The notes under the pieces: generated by a model
Told to the model about the DNA's origin: nothing
The model's input: only the letters and a program-made list of their open reading frames with translations
Database searches by the model: none
Source: a virus
Virus record (IMG/VR): IMGVR_UViG_3300030331_005361
Span: 1-21,692 of that record
DNA length: 21,692 nucleotides
Strand: one strand, 5' to 3'
Translations under genes and position numbers: made by a program
Part shown: positions 198 to 14,035 of the stretch, piece by piece
Layout of the letters: each line of letters begins with the position of its first letter
Numbering within the stretch: the stretch's first letter is position 1

Positions 198-2990
198 TTA
201 AGTACAAATAATGGTAGGATCGGTGGATCTCATTAAAGCGCCATTACTTCCAAATGATCTATTTGTTAAATTAGATGAAAGGCCAATGACTTCAAACTGC
301 ACTGAAGGGTATACTATAGGAGCAACGGTAGTAAAGTAATCAGGACGTGTGAATTTAGCGTCAGTCTCAGGTATAATGCCGCCGGGGTTCACGGCCCGCG
401 AAGAAAGACGATTTCCGAATCCATTAAAGATTAAGTCAAAAAGATCTTGCCTTTCGGTCGAATTAATGTTAACGGAGAATCCTGCGGGCGTGACGCCTCC
501 TGTACTAAATTCTGGATTTGACATTAGCCTAAAGTTTGGCATGGCAAATCCCGCAAATCTCTCAGAATCGTTTCTGTGAACCCAAGGGTATTGTCTTTGA
601 GGTTCGGGGAAGGTGCCGAGTCCACCTCGGGTCAGGGGAGTTATATCTTTACCTGCCCAAGCTACACAAATTGTAAAGTAATCTTTAAATTTTTGAACCC
701 AAACACAAGAACCATTTCTCATTCCCGCTGCGGTTGCTGGAGTTTCGACTGGAAAGGTTCGAGCACCTTCGCTTAGAGGAAGGCAATGTAGAAGATTTAC
801 CTTTACTTGGTAATCTGTCACCCAAGGAGTTTCTGTGAAATCCAACTGAATACGCTTTCTAACAAAGTTTATCTGAACATTTCTCTTTGCAATTTCTCTT
901 TTTTCTTGACTTAATGGATCCGTTAAACGGATTCCGGCGGGCAGACCTAAATCATCCGCAACCTCGGTTGTGGCAAAGTTATACATATTGAAAGCCGTGA
1001 AACCCAACTCATTCCTAATTTCTTCTAAAGTTAAGTTTGATCCGACAGTTTCTGGATCGCCGCCGACGAACTCGGTTACCCCAGGAAGTCCTTTCCAAGG
1101 AGGCATCCATTTCTGAAGTCCTTGCGGCCCAGCTTCCTCAATGGCTCTTGGGTATCCTATATTGATATGATCATTTATTGCATGGTCAGTAAAGGGGCCA
1201 TTATTTTTCCAATCGGCGAAGTCCCAATTAGGGAAGAAAGGGATACTCCCAGGAACATACCCAAACTCCTGTTCAACCTTATCAATAAGGTCATTAATTG
1301 GAGTTAGCTCGATACCGTTTCCAATATTTGATTTAGCATGTCTTAAAAGAGCACCCTCAGGACCCCAGTAGCCCCCTAGAACACTTCCGGCGGCGATCAC
1401 TCTAGCTCTTTCACCATTTGGTGGAGGGTTGTTCGGTGGTGGTGGTGGTGAGGAGTTGTTGCCCTGAATCTCTGATATCCTACTACTAAGCTCCTCGACA
1501 GTTTTACCTAAAGTTTTCTCAAAGTAAGCTTCGGTTACGACCGGATTAGCTATAGAGACTTGTGGTGTTGCCGCAGCAATACCTGCTCGCTCATTGTAAG
1601 CTAGCTCAGTGGTTCTAAAGAAAGGTCTTATATCAATAATATCATCATTATTGATTATATCAGCAATGGGACCACCCTCATTCTGAACTCTAATGTAAGC
1701 AATTGGCAGAATAGACTGCCCTATTAGCTGGAAGGCTGTTGACTCTAGCTGCTCTGATAAAAGAGGAGCTAAGTTCATTAAATCATCAGGCGAAGGGAAT
1801 GATCCTTTTATTAAACCGACATTAACCGAAGAGATCCCTGTATTGTTACCGCTAAAATCACCTGGGTGCGCCAACATGAGAGGAGTGCCATCTAAGCTTT
1901 GAAGGTTAACTCTATCATCAGGAGTTTCACCTGTAATGGAAGTCTTTCTAGACACGCCTATCCCCGCCCCCTTCAAGATACCCAACGATGGCTGAAGTAA
2001 CGTGGTCGGGTTGCCGTTGGCATCAAATTTCGATATTGTTGTTTGGGACTCATCAATAGCCTTAGAGTAAATAAATAACAGATCAATACGGTTATTAGCG
2101 TCTAACGCTAATCTAGTTCCGTCCGGCTGGATACAAAAGAAATCATCCGCATCAAATTCGGGGACAGTTATATCCAACTCCTCAGCAACATCTACAATAG
2201 CGGTTCTAATTGTTCCTCGCCATCTTTTAATGAACTCGGATTCCATCCTACCCATAGACCCAGCATTAGTAGGTTCGCTATCAAAAACATTATTAATTAG
2301 TCTAAGTCGTCTTTGTAATTCCGGTGTGCTGTTCTTGTATAAAGCACCGATAAAATTTGGAAACAAAGGTCTTTGATCAGACTCTGGGCTAAAGTCTGAA
2401 TCAAACTGAGCATAGCCTGGGGTTGTGGTGCCGCTCACAGAAGAGCCAGCTAGAGACCGATCAGCTATGATAAAACCATCATCATCCCATACAGGGTGAA
2501 CAAAAGTTCTTTCCGCTAGGCCATTCATGTTCAGGGCGTCCCCCAGCCTCCCCTGACTAAATTCAAATAAAGCACTGCTGACATCTTGACCTATATTTGT
2601 TTGAAAATCAAAACTGTTAAGATCTAAGGGACCTGAAGCGTCTAGTACACCAAAGCCAGTTGCTTGCGTAACTGTTTGAATTGTTGTTAGACTATATCCG
2701 TTATTTATTCTAGCTGTAAATCTTCCAGGCTTAACCCTAACCTTGCGATCAGTGCCTAATGCAAAAGGTTTTAATTCAGAAAAGCCACTTCGACCTATCT
2801 CTATAGCATCCGCGTTAGGCTGGTTCTGTATTAAGCCATCAACTTGATCTTTTAAGAATTTTTGAGACTCCTCAAGCTGCTTGACAGGGATGTTATCAAC
2901 TTCAAAGTAATAAGGATCATTAGCTTTAAAGTGCCTTACGGGGCTAATGAATGTGTGAGTTGTGTCGTAATAGTTAATTTCGTTAGGCAT
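198..2990 (-). CDS. Large tail/baseplate structural protein, probable fibre-type
   Basis: A 930-residue protein with no signal peptide or membrane segment. Residues 27-43 (YYFEVDNIPVKQLEESQ) match residues 33-49 of the preceding beta-helix protein (YNFEQDNLPLFDLDERT), which suggests a shared N-terminal docking element. A low-complexity linker, SSPPPPPNNPPPNG (about 513-526), splits it into an N-terminal part of about 510 residues and a C-terminal part of about 400. Before the linker is a compact segment containing DIIDIRPFFRTTELAYNERA. Near the C-terminus (907-919) NLTNRSFGSNGAL is nearly identical to residues 115-127 of the beta-helix protein. The ATG overlaps the upstream stop (TAATG) and has a good AAGGA site. 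I do not recognise a named family. Position and architecture suggest a virion protein attached to the baseplate periphery; adhesin or fibre function is inference. Confidence 0.7.
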   Translation of the reverse strand: MPNEINYYDTTHTFISPVRHFKANDPYYFEVDNIPVKQLEESQKFLKDQVDGLIQNQPNADAIEIGRSGFSELKPFALGTDRKVRVKPGRFTARINNGYSLTTIQTVTQATGFGVLDASGPLDLNSFDFQTNIGQDVSSALFEFSQGRLGDALNMNGLAERTFVHPVWDDDGFIIADRSLAGSSVSGTTTPGYAQFDSDFSPESDQRPLFPNFIGALYKNSTPELQRRLRLINNVFDSEPTNAGSMGRMESEFIKRWRGTIRTAIVDVAEELDITVPEFDADDFFCIQPDGTRLALDANNRIDLLFIYSKAIDESQTTISKFDANGNPTTLLQPSLGILKGAGIGVSRKTSITGETPDDRVNLQSLDGTPLMLAHPGDFSGNNTGISSVNVGLIKGSFPSPDDLMNLAPLLSEQLESTAFQLIGQSILPIAYIRVQNEGGPIADIINNDDIIDIRPFFRTTELAYNERAGIAAATPQVSIANPVVTEAYFEKTLGKTVEELSSRISEIQGNNSSPPPPPNNPPPNGERARVIAAGSVLGGYWGPEGALLRHAKSNIGNGIELTPINDLIDKVEQEFGYVPGSIPFFPNWDFADWKNNGPFTDHAINDHINIGYPRAIEEAGPQGLQKWMPPWKGLPGVTEFVGGDPETVGSNLTLEEIRNELGFTAFNMYNFATTEVADDLGLPAGIRLTDPLSQEKREIAKRNVQINFVRKRIQLDFTETPWVTDYQVKVNLLHCLPLSEGARTFPVETPATAAGMRNGSCVWVQKFKDYFTICVAWAGKDITPLTRGGLGTFPEPQRQYPWVHRNDSERFAGFAMPNFRLMSNPEFSTGGVTPAGFSVNINSTERQDLFDLIFNGFGNRLSSRAVNPGGIIPETDAKFTRPDYFTTVAPIVYPSVQFEVIGLSSNLTNRSFGSNGALMRSTDPTIICT

Positions 2991-5900
2991 TAGTTGTCCT
3001 TTTCAAGATTAAAGTTATTTACAGAGGCTAGCCCATCACCGTAGGTGTAAGAATTAAACGAGTCTCCTCCAAAAGAGTTATTATCATAATAGCCTTCTAC
3101 AACTTTTGCTAACCCAGATTTGCCTACCATGTTATGTTTAGCATTTGCAAAAGTATTCAAAGCAGAATCATCAAGAACGGCTTTGATAGTATCCGAACCA
3201 GCCATCATCGCAGAAGCATAATAGAATCCAGAAGGAACAATATCTAAATTTGAACGTCTTAGAATAGAAGCATACTGCGAAGAAGAGTCTAAGCTACCAG
3301 TAGAAGAAACGATTAGATCACCGGAAAAATTATATCCTTGGGAAAATACTTGTCTTGCCATCCCTTGTAACTGATTACTACCGTTTGCTACCATAAAATT
3401 TGTTACGGGATCGACTGAGAAGTATAGTCTAAAAGCTCCAAAGTTCTCGGCACTGACGCTCTTACCAAAAGGATTTTCAGAACTATGACCGTAGTAATCT
3501 AATACTGATAACGAAGAGGTGTCAGGAGTGTCCGTGGGCGCACCGGAGGCAGACCCCCAAACCCCTGAGGGTCCATTGTATCCTGAATCTCTTGGATGGC
3601 TTCCAGAAACAGAAAGCTGAGAAGCTTTTAGCATTGAGTTGTCAGCTATGTTCCATATAAACAATCTGGTACAGTTATTGCCTGCTAGGGGTGCCGTGCC
3701 ATCAATATCATACACTATTCCTGAGGCATTGTGCCATGTCGCGGGGAAGTGAACATTATTGGTCTCTACAAAACTGTTGCCGACTGCCCTTACACACATC
3801 CCTCCAGTAGTGATATCATCAATACTATTTGCATAGTTGTGTAGTAGGTAATGCTTACAAGGAGAAACAGCATCATTTTCAAAAACAAATCTGTCATTAT
3901 TCTGAACCACTGTAGGGTTGTCAACAACATCTGCATTGTTTACATTTGCGTTAGGATAAAACTGTACAAACCCTGCGCTGGCGTATGTTAAAAGCTCTGA
4001 ATCACTAAACCCAGTTAACCCGTCTTGTGATTGACCGTAGATGCCAGTATTGTAGAAAGCTTTATGATCACCTAGATTCTCCATCACAATTCTAGAGTTT
4101 CTATTCGCTACTAAACAAGACCTAGTAGAGTGAAGCTCAACCATGGTGTGATTAGCGGGGTTAGATAAATCAAAAGAAGAAACAAGAAGTGCTCCTTCGC
4201 CATCTTTATGTGGGGTAATCTCAATATTAGAGCTATCTTCAGCCAGAACATCCACACCAAACCTGCCAATCGTTGTCGGACCTTGAATTTTTATTGTGGA
4301 GTTATCCTTAGCGTATAAACCAGCAACATTAATGCTATCTTCCCTTTCTTTCGGCCCTAAGAAAACGTTCGCATATCCGTTAGCAGCGGTCGCATGCTGC
4401 CCCGACCCTCTAACAGTTAGTGTTGAGTTACTTTCAACCTTACTAATAAGACCATGGTGGGCTGTTAAAGTTTTACTAGTCCCAGGCACGCGAACCATGT
4501 GGGCATGGATTAAGTCTGCATCAGAGTTGTTCTTTAAATGAATACAAGGCTTAAGCTCTATACCCGATTCTTCTAAACCAAAACAACCACTGGTGTAAAA
4601 CATGCCAAACATTTGAGGCATTGAGCTTGTGTAGTAAGGCTTTATAATGCTATTGTCGGCAACTAAATCCTGACCATTTAGAATACAACCTACCTGGGAT
4701 TCTAAGGTTGAAGTTACAGACCCAGCTTGAGATTGTGAAGCTGCTGCATATAAATCTTTGTTGTATACAAGCTCGGAGTTTTCTAAGTCTATTGCTGTGT
4801 TTTGATTAAATCTTGAGTTTAGTTGGTCTGTGTAGACTTTAGAATTGCGAGACTCTACTCCCTTGTAATTTCCGTCAAAGTAAATTCTACCACTGTAATC
4901 CAGCTTACTATTACTAAGACGTAACCCTGCCTCAGTATTTAATTCGGCGAATATTTGAGAGCCGTCGTTTCTCTTTGAAGAACCGAAGTCAGGAGATTTG
5001 CCAGACTGCTCAGTGCGACCTCCAGTAATTAAAGAATTTACGGCATCAATCCCTATATCATTTCTAGAAAGGCAATACAAAGCCTCCACTGATGGCGCCG
5101 GTATATTTCCGGCACTGACAGAGTAGCTAGGATATACATTGGAATCTAAAGTAGCTGAGGCCTGCAATATATCGCGATCATAAGTGGACTTAAGATTTAG
5201 TGTAGAATTGTAGACTCGTATGCCAGCGCCATACCCACTTAGCGAATCATAAGATTCTCTCTTTTCTGAGAAAGGAACTCCCACCCTGTTAGATGATATA
5301 TTGGAATAGTTTCTGTAGCCAATAAACCCTCTAAGAATATTGACCTCTGAATTGTCCACAAACAAGCCTGAATCATTGCACCTGGATACCGAACATCTCT
5401 CTAAATTCACATTAGAGTTTTTGATTTCAATACCCCTATCTACTAAGTTCTCGCCATCAACGTTAAAGTTTCTAATGAATACTGGGCCGTTGCAATTGTT
5501 TACTTTAATAAAGTCCAACTTGTTAAAGTAAGCAAAGGCAGCAGCGGCGGTATTATTAGCACCCTCGCCTGTAGCCACCTCAGTACCGTCACCCCACTTA
5601 ATCTCTGTGTTATTTAATTCGTTTACGGTGCTAACATCAAAAACTGCGTCGGAAGATGCTTTATCAAAAGGAGTAAATTTAAAACTCTGAACTTCTGAAA
5701 TCGAAGCGGCAGTAATGTCCCAAGGAGTTATGGCGCTGCTAAGAGAGGCCGTTAGTCTGTTTAACTGCTCTGGTATAACTTTCTTTGAAAAAATGTAAGG
5801 CTTAAACTCCGCAAATCTCTCATCTTTCCATGTATTACTTGAAGAAGCCACAAATGAACCGTTACTGAACAGCCTTGCTTGCTGCATATCGTAAGCCAAC

Positions 5901-6448
5901 CCTGGCCCAGAAGCACCTGCAAGTTCTTGCTGAACATCTAACCTAATTGGGGATACCGCGCTTGCTAGCTTGTAATCAGTAGATCCGGCATCATACTCTT
6001 GGCCCGTGAGTGCTACACCTGATAAATTCATAGCAGGAGCGAAGGAGCTAAGCCTGTTAATTATCTCTAATGCTCCATTAGGACCAAAAGATTTGTTTGA
6101 TAAGTTTAAACCGCCTAACTCTCCAAAGCTAGCCACCTCTACCAGTATAGGATAGTTGATGACCTCCGGTAAAGCGTCTATGCAAGCACTTAAGGTAGTA
6201 AAATGAAGTGGGCTGCAAGCGGATGCGGCGTCGGCAGAAACAATAAAGGACATGCCTGTTAAAGCAGATGTAGGGTGTCCAAACTTTTCCCAAAGAAGAG
6301 TAGTCCTCTCATCTAAATCAAACAAAGGTAAATTATCTTGCTCAAAATTGTAGAATGAACTAGAGTCATACTTAGTTACTTTATCAGTCCAGCAAACTAA
6401 AAGTTTGTTAGATCCGCCTGAGACATATAAATCGCTTGGGTTTAACAT
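2990..6448 (-). CDS. Parallel beta-helix tail protein, candidate receptor-binding or fibre protein
   Basis: A 1152-residue protein. About residues 310-790 hold an irregular repeat in which a short strand ends in an Asn-Ser turn and leads into the next strand: GIEIKNSNVNL, GLFVDNSEVNI, GIRVYNSTLNL, GLRLSNSKLDY, AIDLENSELVY, GLYAKDNSTIKI and more. That pattern is typical of right-handed parallel beta-helices (pectate-lyase-like fold), common in phage tailspikes and adhesins. The N-terminus (33-49, YNFEQDNLPLFDLDERT) matches the start of the 930-residue neighbour, so it is probably the virion-attachment part. Residues 115-127 share a second motif with that neighbour's C-terminus. The C-terminal 350 residues are unassigned. 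The gene starts 1 nt after the preceding stop with only a weak GGA site. No catalytic residues can be assigned, so whether it binds or cleaves glycans is open. Confidence 0.75.
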   Translation of the reverse strand: MLNPSDLYVSGGSNKLLVCWTDKVTKYDSSSFYNFEQDNLPLFDLDERTTLLWEKFGHPTSALTGMSFIVSADAASACSPLHFTTLSACIDALPEVINYPILVEVASFGELGGLNLSNKSFGPNGALEIINRLSSFAPAMNLSGVALTGQEYDAGSTDYKLASAVSPIRLDVQQELAGASGPGLAYDMQQARLFSNGSFVASSSNTWKDERFAEFKPYIFSKKVIPEQLNRLTASLSSAITPWDITAASISEVQSFKFTPFDKASSDAVFDVSTVNELNNTEIKWGDGTEVATGEGANNTAAAAFAYFNKLDFIKVNNCNGPVFIRNFNVDGENLVDRGIEIKNSNVNLERCSVSRCNDSGLFVDNSEVNILRGFIGYRNYSNISSNRVGVPFSEKRESYDSLSGYGAGIRVYNSTLNLKSTYDRDILQASATLDSNVYPSYSVSAGNIPAPSVEALYCLSRNDIGIDAVNSLITGGRTEQSGKSPDFGSSKRNDGSQIFAELNTEAGLRLSNSKLDYSGRIYFDGNYKGVESRNSKVYTDQLNSRFNQNTAIDLENSELVYNKDLYAAASQSQAGSVTSTLESQVGCILNGQDLVADNSIIKPYYTSSMPQMFGMFYTSGCFGLEESGIELKPCIHLKNNSDADLIHAHMVRVPGTSKTLTAHHGLISKVESNSTLTVRGSGQHATAANGYANVFLGPKEREDSINVAGLYAKDNSTIKIQGPTTIGRFGVDVLAEDSSNIEITPHKDGEGALLVSSFDLSNPANHTMVELHSTRSCLVANRNSRIVMENLGDHKAFYNTGIYGQSQDGLTGFSDSELLTYASAGFVQFYPNANVNNADVVDNPTVVQNNDRFVFENDAVSPCKHYLLHNYANSIDDITTGGMCVRAVGNSFVETNNVHFPATWHNASGIVYDIDGTAPLAGNNCTRLFIWNIADNSMLKASQLSVSGSHPRDSGYNGPSGVWGSASGAPTDTPDTSSLSVLDYYGHSSENPFGKSVSAENFGAFRLYFSVDPVTNFMVANGSNQLQGMARQVFSQGYNFSGDLIVSSTGSLDSSSQYASILRRSNLDIVPSGFYYASAMMAGSDTIKAVLDDSALNTFANAKHNMVGKSGLAKVVEGYYDNNSFGGDSFNSYTYGDGLASVNNFNLEKDN
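2997..3001 (-). promoter_or_regulatory. Ribosome-binding site of the 930-residue protein gene
   Basis: AAGGA on the minus strand, 6 nt before the ATG at 2990, inside the last codons (EKDN-stop) of the beta-helix gene. It is one of the best Shine-Dalgarno matches in the window. Confidence 0.65.
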
Positions 6449-6449
6449 A

Positions 6450-7067
6450 TTATCCGAATGTTATTGTCCACCTAAACACCAGTCCGAAATCTGATGTTTT
6501 TCTAATGTTGCTGAAGTGCCTGTAGGCTGCTAATATGGATGTTTCTACCGCACTGTTTTTTGGATTTTTTATAAAAATACCAATTTCATTAAGAGGAGCT
6601 TCGCTGTTCCCTGGCCTGGAGATGTTGTTGCAAGAATCCTCGTCCACAAAAATTGTAAATCTTACTGTTCTTTCGTCCACCTTAGTAACTTTACTAAAGG
6701 GTATTTTAGCAAAATACTCAGGGGTTGTACCGGCCACGTCGTTAGCCCATCTAAAGCCAGAAAAAACATCTAAGTTACTGTCCGAGTTACCGTTTGAATA
6801 TTCTTCTTCGGTCAATTCTCCCGAGAGATTATTAGTAGAACTAACCTGTAACGAGTCTGACCCGCTAACGCCAAGTTTAAATCTATCTATTTGGTAATCA
6901 GTTATTGAGTCTGACCCTATCCTTCCGTATAAATGGGCGAGTGCCCACCCAAAGCCAGATACAATAACGTTATCCTCATCATATACCAAATCCTCCTGAC
7001 CGTTAACGACCTTATGAACCGTTAAGTGCCCTTTTATACCTAAATCATCTGTTAGTGCTCTAATCAT
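6450..7067 (-). CDS. Small beta-rich virion protein of the fibre/baseplate region
   Basis: A 205-residue protein that looks entirely beta-sheet. The N-terminus (IKGHLTVHKVVNGQEDLVYDEDN) reads like alternating beta-strands. The C-terminal third has LNEIGIF, then AAYRHFSNIRKTSDFGL and FRWTITFG at the very end. This NEIG(L/I)F ... W-T-I-x-F layout resembles the terminal beta-sandwich in small phage tail-fibre or collar-type proteins; that resemblance is from memory and not verified. Its ATG overlaps the stop of the 339-residue gene (ATGA), and the next gene starts 1 nt after its TAA. No clear Shine-Dalgarno site is seen, so translation is probably coupled. It lies between the gpI-like gene and the fibre-like genes, which fits an adaptor between baseplate and fibre; that role is inference. 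Confidence 0.6.
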   Translation of the reverse strand: MIRALTDDLGIKGHLTVHKVVNGQEDLVYDEDNVIVSGFGWALAHLYGRIGSDSITDYQIDRFKLGVSGSDSLQVSSTNNLSGELTEEEYSNGNSDSNLDVFSGFRWANDVAGTTPEYFAKIPFSKVTKVDERTVRFTIFVDEDSCNNISRPGNSEAPLNEIGIFIKNPKNSAVETSILAAYRHFSNIRKTSDFGLVFRWTITFG

Positions 7068-8083
7068 TTGAAGTCAAAAAGTAATGTTAATAATATCTTA
7101 GAAGAACTTGTGTTTAGAAAAAATCCTAGGCCTGCGAGGCCTGAAAAATCTCTATGAAAAAAGGGATTGTCTAAAATAGTAGCCTTAGCTACAAGCTTAT
7201 ACTGTCTGTTATTATTTAGAGCATCCCAACTATAAGGGGGCATTAACCCAGAAGCTAACATAGATTTTAAGTCAAGACAATGCACTCCCAGATGCTTAAC
7301 ACTCCCAAAAGATACTAAAGTAACAATGTCACACTGCTCTACTTGAGTGCTTATCTTCAGGAGGCCTAAGGAGGGTGAAGCAGCGCCAGATAGGATTAGA
7401 GAGCCTTTTGAATAATCTAAGGGAGAAACATTCTGTGCCACAGAAGATGGGCTAATTGTTAAAAACCCTTGCTTGTCTACTAAGCCTGAAGTATTGTACT
7501 TACTAGTTAAATCACCACCGTAAACAAAGTTTCCGTCTTTATCGTAAAATTTATAAGTATCTCCACTAGAGGCCGCGAAAGCACCCACTTTGTTCCAAAC
7601 TGAGCTTAGTTGTGGATCTATAGCAGCATTGACGTAATGCCCAAGATTCTGTAATGAGCTTGTGAATAATCCTGATGTGTCTGGTTTAGTTAAGTTTACG
7701 GGTAGAGTGCTACCTCTCTCCAACCTAGTATCTGACGGGAAAGGATCATTAGGAACTGAGTTGTAAGTGGATGAGAAATGAGAGTAAGTTGCGGAAACAA
7801 CGTAAGAAGATGCTCCATTTGGCTCGTCAGATCCATAATTAAATATAGATAGGACACCATCATCAAAACTGCTGGCCCCTGAACTTGAGTCTCCGTTAGT
7901 GTATTGTATGGTTGAAACTACATGAGAGTGGTTAGAAAACCCATCAGCGTCTTTACCGAAGGTAATGGCCTGGAATGTGTAATTTGAAGCATCAAGTATG
8001 GAACTTGCAGATGGAAGCTCAGACAATGCCGGATTTACCGTCATTACATCTGCCAAAATCTCACCAAAGCCTTGTAGGTACAT
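7064..8083 (-). CDS. Phage structural protein of unknown function, between gpI-like and fibre-like genes
   Basis: A 339-residue protein rich in Ser, Gly, Asn and aromatic residues, with no signal peptide, membrane segment or catalytic motif. The first half is low in charge and predicted to be beta/loop (VVSATYSHFSSTYNS, GSTLPVNLTK). It then has NLGHYVNAAI, and a better-defined C-terminal part with VKHLGVHCLDLKSML, YSWDALNNNRQYKLVAKATI and a final hydrophobic strand (KILLTLLFDFK). The TAATG overlap with the gpI-like gene and the ATGA overlap with the next gene suggest stoichiometric synthesis with baseplate proteins. Its slot corresponds to the first gene after gpI in P2-type operons, where fibre or fibre-adaptor genes lie. 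I do not recognise the family and assign no function beyond probable virion component. Confidence 0.55.
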   Translation of the reverse strand: MYLQGFGEILADVMTVNPALSELPSASSILDASNYTFQAITFGKDADGFSNHSHVVSTIQYTNGDSSSGASSFDDGVLSIFNYGSDEPNGASSYVVSATYSHFSSTYNSVPNDPFPSDTRLERGSTLPVNLTKPDTSGLFTSSLQNLGHYVNAAIDPQLSSVWNKVGAFAASSGDTYKFYDKDGNFVYGGDLTSKYNTSGLVDKQGFLTISPSSVAQNVSPLDYSKGSLILSGAASPSLGLLKISTQVEQCDIVTLVSFGSVKHLGVHCLDLKSMLASGLMPPYSWDALNNNRQYKLVAKATILDNPFFHRDFSGLAGLGFFLNTSSSKILLTLLFDFK

Positions 8084-11000
8084 TATACTTGTATGGTTAT
8101 CTCTTCTTTAAGATTGCCAGTTGCGGCAAAAGTTACTCCCAGAAGCAACTCATCAGGTAGGCGATAATCCAATCTTGATCCGCCCTCAGAACCCATTATA
8201 GTCGATGTCTTAGACTTGTCTCTGCTAGCATTTGCAGCGACAGAATTTTTTCCTGCTATATTATTAAAGTGTTTAAATATGTCGAAAATATCCTGCTTTG
8301 AAAGAGATACCCTGTGCTCCGAGCATTCTTTAACAACATCCTTAAGAACACATAAAGGATCACTTAAGGTACCATCCGCAAATATTTTTGAAAGTTTATT
8401 AAGAGTGAGGTCTTGAACCTTTAATGTATCAAGAAGTAGGAATTCATCAGGTTGGGATCCAGGAAGCATGAAAACCTCCACTACGTAATTTTGATCCAAA
8501 CGATGTAGTTGATTAAAGTTTTTCTGATAGTCGTATGGTAATATCAAATCCCTATTACGAGTATTAAACTCTATATCAAAATCTCTAAAGTCATCACTAC
8601 CTAGCCCTATAATAGGTGAAGTTCTAGTTGAAGAAACTAAGTTTAAGCAGGTATTGCTGTTTGAATTTGTTGTGGTTTGAGGATCGTGCTCCTCTAGTTC
8701 AAAAGATTTTATGTGAGCGTAATTGTTTATCAACTCTGTTCTAGATATCAGTTGATTATGCTGCACCCAATTACTTTTTGAATCAAAGCTCCACATGCTG
8801 CCATTCTCTGGCTTAGTGTGAATCCAAACTCCCACGCTTCTACCCCCTAGAGTTAAACCACTATCCCTACTAATCAAGCTTCTCAAGCTTAATATAAAAT
8901 CATGGTCTGGTGATAGAAAGTTATTAGGTACAGGCTGAGAGGTGCTTGCATACTTGGATATGTCAAAACGGACCCTGGGAGGTCCAGAAGGTGCATCCCC
9001 TGACCTCATCAGCACAACGGTATTATCAAATAAGAAATCATCCTCATAAGGAGCCTTACTAGATTTAGGAATTCTTATTACAGAAAAAGACTGACCCGTC
9101 ACACCCGATGTAAGAATTAACTCAACCTCACTTATTAGGCCTGTGCTCACCCTCTCAAAGTTACCTATATACATGCTAGAATCAGCATTGGCTAAGAATG
9201 AATTTGATCCAGTAAAGGGCTCAGAAGTTGCCTCTAACTTAATAGTATTAGAGAAAGAACTAGCAGTAAAAGGCTTATCGTCTCCTAAAATTTCAAAGTC
9301 GTGGTTTCTAACCAAGGGTCCAAATGTGTGAGAAAAAACGTTTGCTCCGTCTTGAGATTGAATATCGGGCCTTAAACTATGCCATTTGAAGTTTTTCTGG
9401 TAGATCCTATAGAGTCTATGAAGGTCTCTGCCAAACGCAAAGTTATAGTAATTACTCACTGATTCAGGAAAAGTGTAACCACTAGCATTTGCATTAGTGC
9501 CGCTTGCGGCCAGAGATATTTGGTCTATATTAATTGAGGTGTTTTCCTCAATTTCATTTCTTGCTTTTAATTCTTTAATTGACTCAGCCACCCTATGCAT
9601 AGCCGCATAAATACCTGGAAGCTGCCCTCTGTCTGTCGTGGTATCCTTATTATCTTTTAAGCTTCCCGACTTTCCTCGAATGTTTTGAGTGTTACTAACA
9701 TCATACTCGAAAAAAGTATTGTTTGAATTGAGATTCTGACATTGATTCCATATAGGAGGTAAATTAATATGGCTGGTGACGGGAGTGTAGCTTAATGAGC
9801 TTGGAACTAACCCTAAAGGGATTCCACTTAATCCTGAGGAAGAGTCAAAAGACACCGGCATATTAAATCCAGTCCTATCGTAATAGCCATTAAAAGGCAT
9901 TACCTTCTCGAATGATTTTCTCCTAGCTGTGATTCTAGGGATGTCCCCAATAGCTGATAAGTTTATAAATTTAGGAGAAACCAAAGATTGAAGGTCTTTT
10001 CTGTCAACAACAACTCCATCAGAGTTGATACCTCTCTTGTAGCTATTAAAGAAAATACCCGAAGCTAATCTATTACCCCCCGCGCCCTTGTCTAACTCCA
10101 CACCATCTAAATAAATATGAGGTAAGCAGTTATCTTCAAATATAAATTTATCTGGGGAGGCAGATACCTCAAGCGATATCAAAGGTATGGAGTGGGCTGG
10201 GGCAAACTTTGAAATAGCTTTAGCAGCGAATGGTACGACATCACCACTGCTTATGGACTTTAAATCTTTCTTATTAAAATCAAACTCTGAAGAGTCTAAA
10301 ACTAATTTAAAGTGAGAAGATTTACCTGACCAAAGTGGTGCATACGTTATGTCCTTGTTGTTTATGTCTTTTATAACACTATCAAGGTTTGGGGGTTGAT
10401 TGTATCCAGAGGTGAATATCAACCAGGAGCCTAGCCTAGGCTCATCATCATTAGTAAGAGCTTTAGACTCTATAAAAGAGCTAACATCTAGCGCAAACTC
10501 TTGCCTAACTCCGAAACATACCAATTGGTCGGTTATAAACCTAAGCATGTCGAAACTTAGTTCTGTGTTGACATAGTAAGGATACTCCTCAAAGGGAGGT
10601 ATCGGATAATCTCTGCCTCGGTATTCAAATGTTCCCGAAAACTTGGATAACCAAGTATTTATTGGGAAATTTTCGGGGAATTGAATGATTGTATCTAAAA
10701 TTATTTTATCTACAGCCAACTTTATATTCTCGTCCATGCTAGCGTAAGAATATTTTTCAATACCCTTAGTAGCAGCTATCGTCTCTGTCCAAGTACTAAA
10801 ATCTCTAAAGAAAGGAGATTCGGTAGCAAGAGAATAATAAATTAGAAAAGGAACGTAAGATTCCCACAATTCTGTAATCCTACCTTCAATCGGAAAATTA
10901 TTTTTAGGGAATATGGTATTAATTGTAGACTGTATAGCCCTCTTGGTACCTACTGATTTGTAAATTGAAACAGCATTCCTAAGCTGCATTCTCCACCTTA

Positions 11001-11988
11001 CAGGATCATTGCCAAACAAATCCCAACCAATTAATTGAGAGATAAAGGGTAGTAATTCATCAGGGCAATCATCTATGTCATACAGCGTTGAAATCTCCTC
11101 TGTGTCATTATTAATGTCAAAAGCTAAAAAGGATAAGGCCCTTATTAATCTTGCGAAAGGACCACTTTCAATCTTTTCTGAAGACTTTATACTGTTCTCC
11201 ATAAATAGATTAAATTTATCTCTAACTCTAAAGTCAGAAGAGTCTGCAAATAAAGGAGAATAGATTATCTGGTTCCAAGTCTTAAGCTTGTCAAGTTGCT
11301 GTATGCCGCTGGTAGTCTCAGAACTGCCACTAACAAACATGCTAGGTATAAAAGAGCTAGATGCGTTCCGCCATAAATACTCCGTTAGCCCATTTATACC
11401 GTCTAACGTATCAATTTTGTTCCCCTCGTATAAGCTGCTTACAATCAAACCTTTAACATATGAGGATGGACTAAAGGTAGGACCAGAAGTATTAAGAAAA
11501 TAAAACCAAGACAGCTTGGATATTAAGTGATCGTGTATCGCAGAGATAGATCCTAAGCTAGAGAATACAGACTCATTAGGATTATTTAAAGTTATTGAAG
11601 AAAGTAGCTTAGTATCTATGAAAGATGACAACTCTTCTTTTGATTGGAAATCAGAAAACTTTACATCAAAGAAAGAAAGAATATCGTTTTCAAAACTTTG
11701 TGTAGTTACTTTGGTTAGATTGTTCTGCTTAACAAAATAAGGTGCTATACCTGATAGGGAACTCAAGTCTGTGAAATTAGACCCTTCCATGGAACTTACG
11801 TTTAGTATGGATGAGATATTATTAGCAGCATCAATATGAGTATTTATAACTAAATCAACAATATCTTCAGACTTAGGAGTGCCAGACAGATCATCTTCAA
11901 ACAGATAGTCTGGGATAATAAATTTTAATGCCTCATGATAGTTTCTTTGAAAGAAATTAGGATTTCTTAAGTATACCTTCCCAGACAT
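8083..11988 (-). CDS. Giant baseplate wedge protein with tail-protein-I-like segment
   Basis: A 1301-residue protein. Residues about 300-360 contain DDCPDELLPFISQLIGWD followed by a positively charged helix, LRNAVSIYKSVGTKRAIQ. This is the hallmark arrangement of the P2 tail protein I family: an acidic start, LLP..A..L.WD, then a helix with the G-T-x-x-A-I motif. P2 gpI is under 200 residues, so most of this protein is extra. The N-terminal 300 residues look mainly helical. After the I-like segment come PFEEYPYYVNTELSFDML (about 470) and a long beta-rich region with RTGFNMPVSFD (about 705) and VGVWIHTKPENGSMW (about 1050). The gene follows a gpJ-type gene by TAATG, the expected order. It probably plays the T4 gp7/P2 gpI role of bridging the inner wedge to peripheral fibres; the role of the extra domains is inferred. 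Confidence 0.7.
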   Translation of the reverse strand: MSGKVYLRNPNFFQRNYHEALKFIIPDYLFEDDLSGTPKSEDIVDLVINTHIDAANNISSILNVSSMEGSNFTDLSSLSGIAPYFVKQNNLTKVTTQSFENDILSFFDVKFSDFQSKEELSSFIDTKLLSSITLNNPNESVFSSLGSISAIHDHLISKLSWFYFLNTSGPTFSPSSYVKGLIVSSLYEGNKIDTLDGINGLTEYLWRNASSSFIPSMFVSGSSETTSGIQQLDKLKTWNQIIYSPLFADSSDFRVRDKFNLFMENSIKSSEKIESGPFARLIRALSFLAFDINNDTEEISTLYDIDDCPDELLPFISQLIGWDLFGNDPVRWRMQLRNAVSIYKSVGTKRAIQSTINTIFPKNNFPIEGRITELWESYVPFLIYYSLATESPFFRDFSTWTETIAATKGIEKYSYASMDENIKLAVDKIILDTIIQFPENFPINTWLSKFSGTFEYRGRDYPIPPFEEYPYYVNTELSFDMLRFITDQLVCFGVRQEFALDVSSFIESKALTNDDEPRLGSWLIFTSGYNQPPNLDSVIKDINNKDITYAPLWSGKSSHFKLVLDSSEFDFNKKDLKSISSGDVVPFAAKAISKFAPAHSIPLISLEVSASPDKFIFEDNCLPHIYLDGVELDKGAGGNRLASGIFFNSYKRGINSDGVVVDRKDLQSLVSPKFINLSAIGDIPRITARRKSFEKVMPFNGYYDRTGFNMPVSFDSSSGLSGIPLGLVPSSLSYTPVTSHINLPPIWNQCQNLNSNNTFFEYDVSNTQNIRGKSGSLKDNKDTTTDRGQLPGIYAAMHRVAESIKELKARNEIEENTSINIDQISLAASGTNANASGYTFPESVSNYYNFAFGRDLHRLYRIYQKNFKWHSLRPDIQSQDGANVFSHTFGPLVRNHDFEILGDDKPFTASSFSNTIKLEATSEPFTGSNSFLANADSSMYIGNFERVSTGLISEVELILTSGVTGQSFSVIRIPKSSKAPYEDDFLFDNTVVLMRSGDAPSGPPRVRFDISKYASTSQPVPNNFLSPDHDFILSLRSLISRDSGLTLGGRSVGVWIHTKPENGSMWSFDSKSNWVQHNQLISRTELINNYAHIKSFELEEHDPQTTTNSNSNTCLNLVSSTRTSPIIGLGSDDFRDFDIEFNTRNRDLILPYDYQKNFNQLHRLDQNYVVEVFMLPGSQPDEFLLLDTLKVQDLTLNKLSKIFADGTLSDPLCVLKDVVKECSEHRVSLSKQDIFDIFKHFNNIAGKNSVAANASRDKSKTSTIMGSEGGSRLDYRLPDELLLGVTFAATGNLKEEITIQV

Positions 11989-13592
11989 TATATGTATTCT
12001 ACCCTTATAGTTAAGTTATTCAATTGAATAATTTCATTGAAGCCCACCCTTATTTTGGAATCAACATTATCCACTTCTGCGAATCTAAGAATATCAACTT
12101 CAGAAAGTAAAACCCTTATAAGGTCTTGAGGAATAAAAGGCTCTCCAAACTCAACATTGTTAAAATTCATATAGTTTAGTATGGATGCTCTAGACCTTTG
12201 AATAATCTCAGACTCGCTTCTTCTAAACTTATCATCAATAGTTAGGGTAACTATAAGGTCTAAAGTCCTAATCAAACCATCAACTACAACAACCTCATCA
12301 GTAAGCATTTTAAGTGGCTCTATAGCCTCTAAAAGTTGCTTTTTGTATTCTTGAGTAGCTCTTCTCAACTGATTGTCAGAGGCTCTTTCCAGAGTAAATA
12401 AATCGACTATATTAGCAGACGAGAAAGCTCTTCTCACTACCGCAGTAGCTTTACCAGTAGACCCGTAGTTTGATGCAAATCTATTAGCAAAAGCTTTGAA
12501 ATCATTTAAAGTTACAAGTCTGTCTTGTGTCCTAAAAACTAAAGGTGCATATCTTTTTGCTTCAGAAATAGACTCTGCATCCCTTCCCCCCGTGGCAATG
12601 CTGCTGTTCTCAACGGTTAAACTAACCGGCTCTTTAGAAGAGCCTAATTTAGAGGTTCCATTTAATTTAGCATTAATAACTCCCTCTGCCAAATTTCCTC
12701 TGACTCCGCCACCAACACGATAGGTAATAGTGTATTCATCTCCAATTGCAGGAGATAACCCTACAGTGTTGTCTCCAAAGAATATAGAGGCTTTAAAGTT
12801 TTCATTAGTAGTAACCTGGAAAACTTTGTCTGTAGGTCCTGATGCGAAATATATGTTATCTTCTTCTTTATAAATCCCCTGAGTTTCTGGCTTTCCTGTA
12901 ACGAACACTTGAGCACTTTTCTCAACATAAGGAAACTGGCTAAGGTTCACACTCTGTATTTGAGAGGGAGATGAAAAAACTCCTGTTTCTACAACCAATG
13001 CACCCTCAAGTAACACAGCGTCAGTAACAGTAACATTCCCACCTACAGCAGAAACAGTAAACTCTAAATCCTCAGTGGGGTCGGTTAAATCTACAGTACC
13101 ATTATTATTAACCTTGTATAAGGTGTAGGTCAATGAACCGCCATCATCTGGTGATCCAATAGTTACCACCCTATCGGAAGCCGAAACTACTAAAGTATTG
13201 GGATTGCTTAAGGTATTGACTGAGTATGATAGAGTGGCATTAGCAGCCGCTGATATCGGACCCCTCATTCTCACACCAATTAACTCTAACAATCTTTTAA
13301 CACTATCTCGGCTCTTAGCAGTTCCTATGTAATTCTCATTTGCTAAATAATCTGATTTGTTGGATTGAATGTGGCCCACAGCAGCCATCATTTCAATTAA
13401 AAGCATGCCAAAGTCTGAACTTTCAAAGTTGTTGTAATCTAAAGGGAATGTGGCTTTAACATAGTCAATTAAGTTTTGACGTAAAGTTTCAAAGTCCGAA
13501 GCAGAAAAATCAATTAACTTTTCTTTATCACCAAGCTCAGAAGGTATGAGTTTTAGAAAGTCCGATTCAACTGTTCCTGAAAAAGCTACCAT
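11988..13592 (-). CDS. Baseplate wedge protein, gpJ / T4 gp6 family
   Basis: A 534-residue baseplate J-like protein. The N-terminal region (about 45-115) has FGMLLIEMMAAVGHIQSN, YLANENYIGTAKSRDSV and RLLELIGVRMRGP, the family's helical signature. The middle is beta-rich (IYFASGPTDKVFQVT, YTITYRVGGGVRGN). At about 331-375 lies the diagnostic GGRDAESISEAKRYAPLVFR-TQDR-VTLNDFKAFA block. The C-terminus has EPFIPQDLIRVLLSEVD. These proteins form the wedge ring around the hub that transmits the contraction signal; T4 gp6 is somewhat longer and P2 gpJ shorter. The ATG overlaps the gp25-like stop (TAATG), with GGAG 10 nt upstream. Its place directly after gp25/W and before the gpI-like gene is the conserved order for contractile tails. 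Confidence 0.93.
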   Translation of the reverse strand: MVAFSGTVESDFLKLIPSELGDKEKLIDFSASDFETLRQNLIDYVKATFPLDYNNFESSDFGMLLIEMMAAVGHIQSNKSDYLANENYIGTAKSRDSVKRLLELIGVRMRGPISAAANATLSYSVNTLSNPNTLVVSASDRVVTIGSPDDGGSLTYTLYKVNNNGTVDLTDPTEDLEFTVSAVGGNVTVTDAVLLEGALVVETGVFSSPSQIQSVNLSQFPYVEKSAQVFVTGKPETQGIYKEEDNIYFASGPTDKVFQVTTNENFKASIFFGDNTVGLSPAIGDEYTITYRVGGGVRGNLAEGVINAKLNGTSKLGSSKEPVSLTVENSSIATGGRDAESISEAKRYAPLVFRTQDRLVTLNDFKAFANRFASNYGSTGKATAVVRRAFSSANIVDLFTLERASDNQLRRATQEYKKQLLEAIEPLKMLTDEVVVVDGLIRTLDLIVTLTIDDKFRRSESEIIQRSRASILNYMNFNNVEFGEPFIPQDLIRVLLSEVDILRFAEVDNVDSKIRVGFNEIIQLNNLTIRVEYI

Positions 13593-14035
13593 TAGATTTT
13601 AACTCCAATATTAAAGGCTGTGGCTATGGCGTCCTTTATAGAGCAAAACAGATTAACCTTCAACTGCCCTCCCCTAGACTCAAAAACTTGAATTTTACCT
13701 ATAGACACGGTTCTAAGGTATCTACGCACGGAGATAGTAACTTCCTCTTTTATCAAAGAAAACAATGTCTCATCAAGAGGTTCCATTAAAAACTTTCTAA
13801 GATCGCATCCATAATCAGGGCGCATAAATCTCTCACCCCTTTGAGTCCTTAGAAGAGAAGACAGATTAGACTTTATAAGTTTTAGATTAGAAGATTTGCT
13901 AAAATAACCATTTTTAGGGTTTAAAGGTATGGGGTAATTAAGACCTTGAAACTTAGGGTCTTCTAAGGTGAAGGGTCTTTTAATCTGACGTGCGGTCAGC
14001 TTGCCGTGAACAGTAACATTATTTGAAATAGGCAT
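13592..14035 (-). CDS. Baseplate wedge protein, gp25 / gpW lysozyme-like family
   Basis: A 147-residue protein, the usual size for this family (T4 gp25 is about 130 residues). Residues 61-89 carry the family signature: LLRTQRGERFMRPDYGCDLR followed by KFLMEPLDE, then a helix (LFSLIKEEVTISVRRYL) and two C-terminal strands. The EPR-like core that holds the sheath initiator to the wedge is represented by the R-G-E-R and M-R-P-D-Y-G residues. Despite the family's historical lysozyme-like name, the protein is structural: it links the inner baseplate to the first sheath ring. Its ATG is 14 nt after the stop of the glycosidase gene, with only a weak AGAG upstream, and this is the largest gap in the block. 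Its last codons (GVKI-stop) supply the ribosome-binding site of the next gene. Confidence 0.93.
   Translation of the reverse strand: MPISNNVTVHGKLTARQIKRPFTLEDPKFQGLNYPIPLNPKNGYFSKSSNLKLIKSNLSSLLRTQRGERFMRPDYGCDLRKFLMEPLDETLFSLIKEEVTISVRRYLRTVSIGKIQVFESRGGQLKVNLFCSIKDAIATAFNIGVKI
13603..13606 (-). promoter_or_regulatory. Ribosome-binding site of the gpJ-like gene
   Basis: GGAG on the minus strand, 10 nt before the ATG at 13592, inside the final codons (GVKI-stop) of the gp25-like gene. The 17-nt context is almost the same as that before the LamG-protein gene. Confidence 0.65.

Follow-up and report, generated by a model that had tools for sequence, protein, structure and literature searches.

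A short N-terminal peptide on two neighbouring putative adhesins of an uncultured T4-type virus: a predicted virion-attachment plug

Conserved N-terminal attachment parts on otherwise variable receptor-binding proteins (RBPs) are of a known kind (PMC9710869, PMC9700779, PMC10253068). The RBP of Staphylococcus phage Andhra is described as beginning with an N-terminal loop of 36–38 residues, which contacts the portal and stem proteins, and continuing with a coiled-coil stem of 34–38 residues and a beta-helix. A very similar loop occurs in the unrelated RBP of P68, where 24 residues superpose and 17 are identical (PMC9710869). Little is known of how deeply diverged aquatic T4-type phages recognise their hosts. 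In a survey of the Far-T4 phages published in 2015, the T4 core genes for virus-host interaction were undetected (PMC4360716). Here we describe a peptide shared by the N-termini of two adjacent, otherwise different proteins of the virus record IMGVR_UViG_3300030331_005361, which spans 21,692 bases and is referred to below, in full, as the window. Judged from sequence, structure models and analogy, this unit of about 38 residues is probably a plug that attaches two different adhesins to the virion, most likely at the baseplate.

The two proteins and their shared units lie as follows.

198..2990, minus strand: P0001, 930 residues, 'A type', the second motif-bearing protein, with the N-terminal peptide, a helix at residues 36–55 and a proline-rich linker near residues 512–525
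2841..2954, minus strand: shared N-terminal unit of P0001, residues 13–50; core residues 27–41 at 2868–2912
2990..6448, minus strand: P0002, 1152 residues, 'B type', the first motif-bearing protein, with the N-terminal peptide, a short helix at residues 42–55 and a tailspike-like right-handed beta-helix body
6281..6394, minus strand: shared N-terminal unit of P0002, residues 19–56; core residues 33–47 at 6308–6352

A preliminary description of this DNA reported that YYFEVDNIPVKQLEE (P0001 residues 27–41) and YNFEQDNLPLFDLDE (P0002 residues 33–47) match at 8 of 15 positions, at a similar distance from the start and in proteins that look unrelated elsewhere. The eight identities are correct, the motif begins at residues 27 and 33, both open reading frames (ORFs) are as described, and the two bodies fail to align in profile comparison. 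The 15 residues are the core of the unit; its true extent in the profile alignment is longer, about 38 residues (P0001 13–50, P0002 19–56). The evidence from this pair alone is modest. The ungapped 15-mer scores 44 with BLOSUM62 within the first 70 residues, and 1 of 300 shuffles is as good. In the full-length 15-mer comparison, P0001 905–919 and P0002 113–127 (around LTNRSFGSNGAL and LSNKSFGPNGAL) score 52, above the 44 of the motif. The profile comparison does not report this second 15-mer. It was set aside because A-type relatives have lost or never had it, and may be due to chance, convergence or local exchange. The motif, in turn, is accepted as real because both families keep the peptide in their relatives.

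Among 45 selected members of each type, the motif is the best conserved 15-residue window, with a mean pair identity of 0.81 in the P0001 type, where the overall value is 0.235, and of 0.83 in the P0002 type, where it is 0.337. A second window of the P0001 type, near residues 453–468, is as conserved as the peptide; the conserved region of P0001 runs to about residue 500, and the C-terminal part is variable. An hhalign comparison of the two 45-member profiles pairs P0001 13–50 with P0002 19–56 (E 2.9e-4, probability 40%), and the rest of the output holds a single further match with a probability of 0.1%. Across the 54 rows of an alignment the N and P never vary, while Y, E, D and L each occur in at least 90%. 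The peptide takes the form DPYYYEVDN[LI]PLxxLxxN in most proteins and SSFYNWEQDNLPLxDLEER in the tailspike type. Behind the motif, hydrophobic residues are found at P+4 in 0.98 of the motif proteins, at P+11 in 0.92 and at P+15 in 0.80, and more weakly at P+18, +22 and +25, a heptad-like spacing with a polar place at P+8.

The site rule of the T4-type prohead protease is L-x-E, and the peptide could be such a site, removed in maturation. The E two places behind the conserved L is present in 113 of 128 A-type and 96 of 115 B-type motifs that could be parsed, and a gp21-like gene, labelled by inspection, lies downstream in relatives. Against this, just 15 of the 43 proteins with other bodies have L-x-E, and the centre of conservation is Y-x-x-E-x-D-N-x-P and not L-x-E, which leaves a protease site scarcely credible.

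Neither P0001 nor P0002 has a tblastn match at E≤0.1 in the phage collection, and P0001 as a single query found no locus in the search of viral contigs. The same search with P0002 found 44 contigs; the profile detects a peptide-bearing ORF in all 44 and two such ORFs in 34, and in relatives the P0001-type gene lies directly behind the P0002-type gene. Short N-terminal queries gave weak tblastn matches in some searches and none in others. A tblastn match in ICP1 lies on the strand opposite to the annotated gene and was taken as chance. The DNA pattern for Y-x-[FY]-E-x-D-N-x-P-x-x-x-L occurs in at least 120 stretches of viral contigs, a scan that presets the motif and thus informs on place and bodies, not on frequency. 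Among the 120 pattern matches listed, 117 have an ORF with a profile-confirmed motif at its N-terminus and 3 do not. Over all fetched loci there are 288 motif ORFs, 215 of them distinct by N-terminal sequence; the loci (numbered with an L below) overlap, and several are the same contig (e.g. L002 and L123). The profile match begins between residues 4 and 56, and in none of the 288 does it start later.

On prokaryote contigs (257 billion bases) the same pattern gave 29 stretches, one of which is real. This stretch (L173, NZTP01000017.1), from an Altibacter metagenome-assembled genome, matches fully and has both motif genes. Since its contig of 29,949 bases is equal in length to the IMG/VR contig of L009, it is most likely that same virus binned with a bacterium, probably a flavobacterium; the binning gives a weak hint at the host. 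The other 28 stretches have the pattern without an ORF of at least 40 residues over it, or with a profile match that is short, weak or absent. A second pattern, DPYYxxVDN[RS]P, which presets the DNRP form, gave 19 viral stretches, all with the motif. Eight of these 19 contigs measure 168–183 kb and so resemble in size the genomes of Salmonella phage Arash and of Vibrio phage D69, in which the same protein is found. An earlier profile, built without DNRP rows, also matched DNRP proteins (E 1.1e-7 and 6.4e-7).

The number of peptide places per genome is small. Each of eight long contigs of the window's lineage (62–103 kb) has exactly two, each of three Arash-like records (172–183 kb) has one, and among other records L209 has one, L216 two, and L133 and L147 three each; the alignment behind these counts (A1) includes two DNRP-type rows, so that the counts are not independent for the DNRP group. 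With so few places per genome, the peptide is not scattered across virion proteins at large. The pattern search proposed in the preliminary description places the peptide at N-termini, on several unrelated bodies. The wide occurrence in non-tail proteins that it had named as contrary evidence is not seen in the collections scanned, and in these collections the peptide is virus-specific.

Comparison of 258 motif proteins with two body profiles gave 129 of the A type, 115 of the B type, 14 of neither and none of both. BLAST clustering that includes the DNRP set divides 280 bodies into nine groups, two of which are single short proteins; bodies are called unrelated here when they lack similarity at the thresholds used. 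Grouping depends on the threshold in places: three proteins of L147 have no body-profile match at E≤10, yet single-linkage BLAST places them in the A group, and the L157 body stood alone in the first clustering and was grouped in a looser one. The three L147 proteins (953–3468; 273–282 residues) stand in tandem behind the end of a P0002-like gene, which looks like a duplicated small fibre gene. L216 has two very short peptide-bearing proteins (5121–6664; 134 and 161 residues) near genes that are fibre-like and lysis-like by inspection, and these might be plugs with minimal bodies. The body of L063 (M4) has no match among phages.

The A and B genes are adjacent and share their order, as would be expected if they were ancient duplicates and the peptide an ancestral remnant with no common contact in the present-day virion. 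Were the peptide a neutral remnant, however, it would be neither the most conserved part of the two proteins nor present on further unrelated bodies, and we consider this origin very improbable.

The P0002 model is good overall (predicted local distance difference test, pLDDT, 78.2; predicted template modelling score, pTM, 0.82) and of low confidence (pLDDT <50) at residues 20–41, where most of the conserved peptide lies; a helix at residues 42–55 and a beta-helix body follow. The modelled body is a parallel beta-helix, with 7 Foldseek matches at E≤0.001, and its Foldseek and VIA-align partners are tailspikes and polysaccharide lyases. The top VIA match is 8egr_B of the Andhra phage upper tail (Z 21.1, root-mean-square deviation 3.5, 475 residues aligned). 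The length of this chain, 600, fits the 609 residues given for the RBP gp15 in the published description (PMC9710869). The P0001 model is poor (pLDDT 57.2) and has the same order, with residues 18–33 below 50 and a helix at residues 36–55; used as a Foldseek query it retrieved nothing from PDB or BFVD at E≤0.001. The peptide profile found nothing usable among PDB sequences, the best match being a coiled-coil peptide at E 0.79.

The helix directly behind the peptide in both monomer models (36–55 in the poor P0001 model, 42–55 in P0002) also suits an oligomerisation signal, by which the peptide would cap or register the N-terminal coiled coil of its own trimer or join A to B. The hydrophobic residues at P+4, +11 and +15, and weakly at P+18, +22 and +25, agree with this, as does the adjoining position of the A and B genes. 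On the other side, the most conserved residues precede the helix and lie in the low-confidence stretch, an uncommon arrangement if the peptide did no more than cap a trimer, and the B-type helix is short (14 residues). Joining of A to B cannot be general because the three Arash-like records each hold a single such gene. We consider an oligomerisation signal quite unlikely.

The pair lies in a tail and baseplate cluster on one strand, comprising P0011, P0010 (gp5-like), P0009, P0008 (glycoside-hydrolase-like) and P0007 through P0001; the gp5 label of P0010 and the GH98 label of P0008 are matches below Pfam cutoffs. The genes next to the pair are the following.

6450..7067, minus strand: P0003 (gp205), 205 residues, phrog_5417, a family without known function; candidate partner of the peptide
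7064..8083, minus strand: P0004 (gp339), 339 residues, without a family match; the other candidate partner, named in the preliminary description
8083..11988, minus strand: P0005, 1301 residues, gpI-like, Pfam Tail_P2_I above the Pfam cutoff
11988..13592, minus strand: P0006, baseplate wedge gp6/J-like, phrog_219, 1.9e-36
13592..14035, minus strand: P0007, baseplate wedge gp25, Pfam GPW_gp25 above the Pfam cutoff

This order is kept in the relatives. Gp205 is immediately upstream of the B-type gene in all 111 cases with an upstream ORF present, and four more B genes have no such ORF in the stretch. The gene after a complete B gene bears the peptide in 99 of 99 cases, of which 88 are A-type, 6 are cut or short and 5 match neither body profile. 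With identical N-termini removed, the two counts are 79 and 75. The five loci with another body keep the peptide even so, which argues for a plug. Gp339, gpI, gp6 and gp25 precede the B-type gene in most loci where the stretch reaches that far. In L119, L124, L133, L134 and L157 gp205 was detected and gp339 was not. Gp205 is the best guess for the partner because it is the most constant neighbour; it has no match among PDB sequences at E≤1.

The baseplate location follows from gene position alone, and the docking site could also be at the neck or collar, the place of attachment of the RBPs of Andhra and P68. In the nearest structural precedent the contacts are made with portal and stem proteins (PMC9710869), and capsid genes lie downstream in the lineage. 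The pair is directly behind the baseplate cluster of gp25, gp6, gpI, gp339 and gp205, however, and gene position is just a hint; we consider a neck site unlikely.

A docking plug is the best explanation of the peptide because P0002, as modelled, has both the layout of the Andhra RBP and its kind of body. The common docking peptide of the preliminary description agrees with the N-terminal place, the unrelated bodies, the virus specificity, the position behind baseplate genes and the low-confidence stretch of the tailspike model. Its suggested partners are gpI and the 339-residue protein; gp205 is the more constant neighbour. In the mechanism we propose, a flexible, strongly conserved peptide would be followed by a helix with heptad-like spacing that may trimerise, and the peptide would bind a conserved virion site, with the baseplate as its likeliest place and gp205 as the putative socket. 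It would thereby fix two proteins, a tailspike with a beta-helix and another that is variable and fibre-like, both predicted to be receptor-binding or depolymerase-like, and P0001 and P0002 would dock at sites of one kind. Elsewhere among phages, different bodies may be attached through the peptide in equivalent or related positions.

Several points weigh against this proposal. The probability in the comparison of the A and B profiles reached just 40% (E 2.9e-4). The peptides of A and B need not bind the same site because their flanks differ (KANDPYYFEV versus SSFYNFEQ). The loose peptide of P0001 says little since that model is poor (pLDDT 57), and a stretch that becomes ordered only upon trimerisation could likewise give low pLDDT in a monomer model. 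A profile search of the peptide's surroundings in the 19 DNRP-type loci found no gp205, so that gp205 cannot be demonstrated as a general socket.

If the peptide is a docking plug, it might also be a common currency, with one type of socket taking any bearer, two or three adhesins per virion in mixed occupancy, and genes that move between loci and between distant lineages keeping only this short plug. We regard this as a tentative extension, possible but doubtful; if true, transfer would link the present T4-type lineage with Arash-like and further phages.

By the phage matches of a relative's gp23, the lineage can be assigned to the T4 superfamily. The window has the gp25 and gp6-like wedge genes and no capsid gene; its relatives have the gp23-like capsid gene, and 20 ORFs in the fetched loci match the relative's gp23. 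This gp23 has matches in 2491 phage records, the best at about 31% identity in cyanophages, and the gp23 of Rhodothermus phage RM378 is at 30%. RM378 was rejected as a cultured relative, since its ORFs gave no match at E≤1 to the peptide profile and ten family profiles. Farther downstream in relatives, either a gene of lipoprotein type or one for a large proline-rich protein is followed by gp21-, gp22- and gp23-like genes, the first two labels being given by inspection. Proteins of 800–1010 residues with a proline-rich N-terminal part and without the peptide lie behind the P0001-type gene in L005 (16176–19205), L016 (15861–18329) and L009 (16251–18650). P0008 (14050–16173), with its weak GH98 match, separates P0009 from the gp25 gene. 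Only 4 ORFs in the fetched loci match it, its own and three more, and it therefore has the look of an optional insert in the baseplate cluster.

Scans of P0001, P0002 and 10 motif proteins from other loci against Pfam and PHROGs gave no family that covers the motif. Two weak overlaps occur behind the motif, phrog_32491 at residues 35–54 of one protein (E 0.06) and phrog_12982, a tail fiber protein family, at residues 37–66 of another (E 0.39). A search for the motif strings in the main texts of the PMC papers covered found no paper. New points are the peptide family, the fact that two different neighbours encoded in one genome both carry it, and its occurrence across more than one phage lineage. 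As a sequence tag, the peptide can reveal adhesin genes of varied shape among uncultured viruses, and it leads to a testable claim of how two different adhesins share one particle.

Among described phages, the Far-T4 group with RM378 resembles this lineage in its deeply diverged T4-type capsid gene and its uncultured aquatic relatives (PMC4360716, PMC7198788). RM378 differs in lacking the window's families at the thresholds used, and by pairwise identity its gp23 (30%) is no closer to the relative's gp23 than those of cyanophages (about 31%). The peptide itself is met in gp199 of Salmonella phage Arash, annotated as 'structural protein', and in Vibrio phages D69, D148 and D181, as DPYYxxVDNRPLxxL/I near residues 18–34; a literature search on 'Salmonella phage Arash' found no paper. 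Unlike the window proteins, this bearer is about 310 residues long, has another body and lies beside helicase genes, with one tblastn match per record.

The branched tailspikes of CBA120, G7C, RaK2 and phiKp24 likewise use conserved N-terminal parts to assemble different enzymatic beta-helix bodies on one virion, according to the accounts in PMC9700779 and PMC10253068. These N-terminal parts, an anchor and XD/D1 domains, are either folded domains, T4 gp10-like or D1, or an anchor of about 100 residues, whereas the unit here has about 38 residues. The nearest likeness in layout is to Andhra gp15 and P68 gp17 (PMC9710869). In both, as in the present proteins, a short conserved N-terminal stretch is found on non-homologous bodies, and the P0002 model repeats the order of Andhra gp15, a loose peptide, a helix and a beta-helix body, with 8egr_B as its top VIA match. 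This likeness is one of arrangement. Andhra and P68 are two short-tailed phages, each with its own RBP, whereas here two different neighbouring proteins carry the peptide in one genome with contractile-tail genes.

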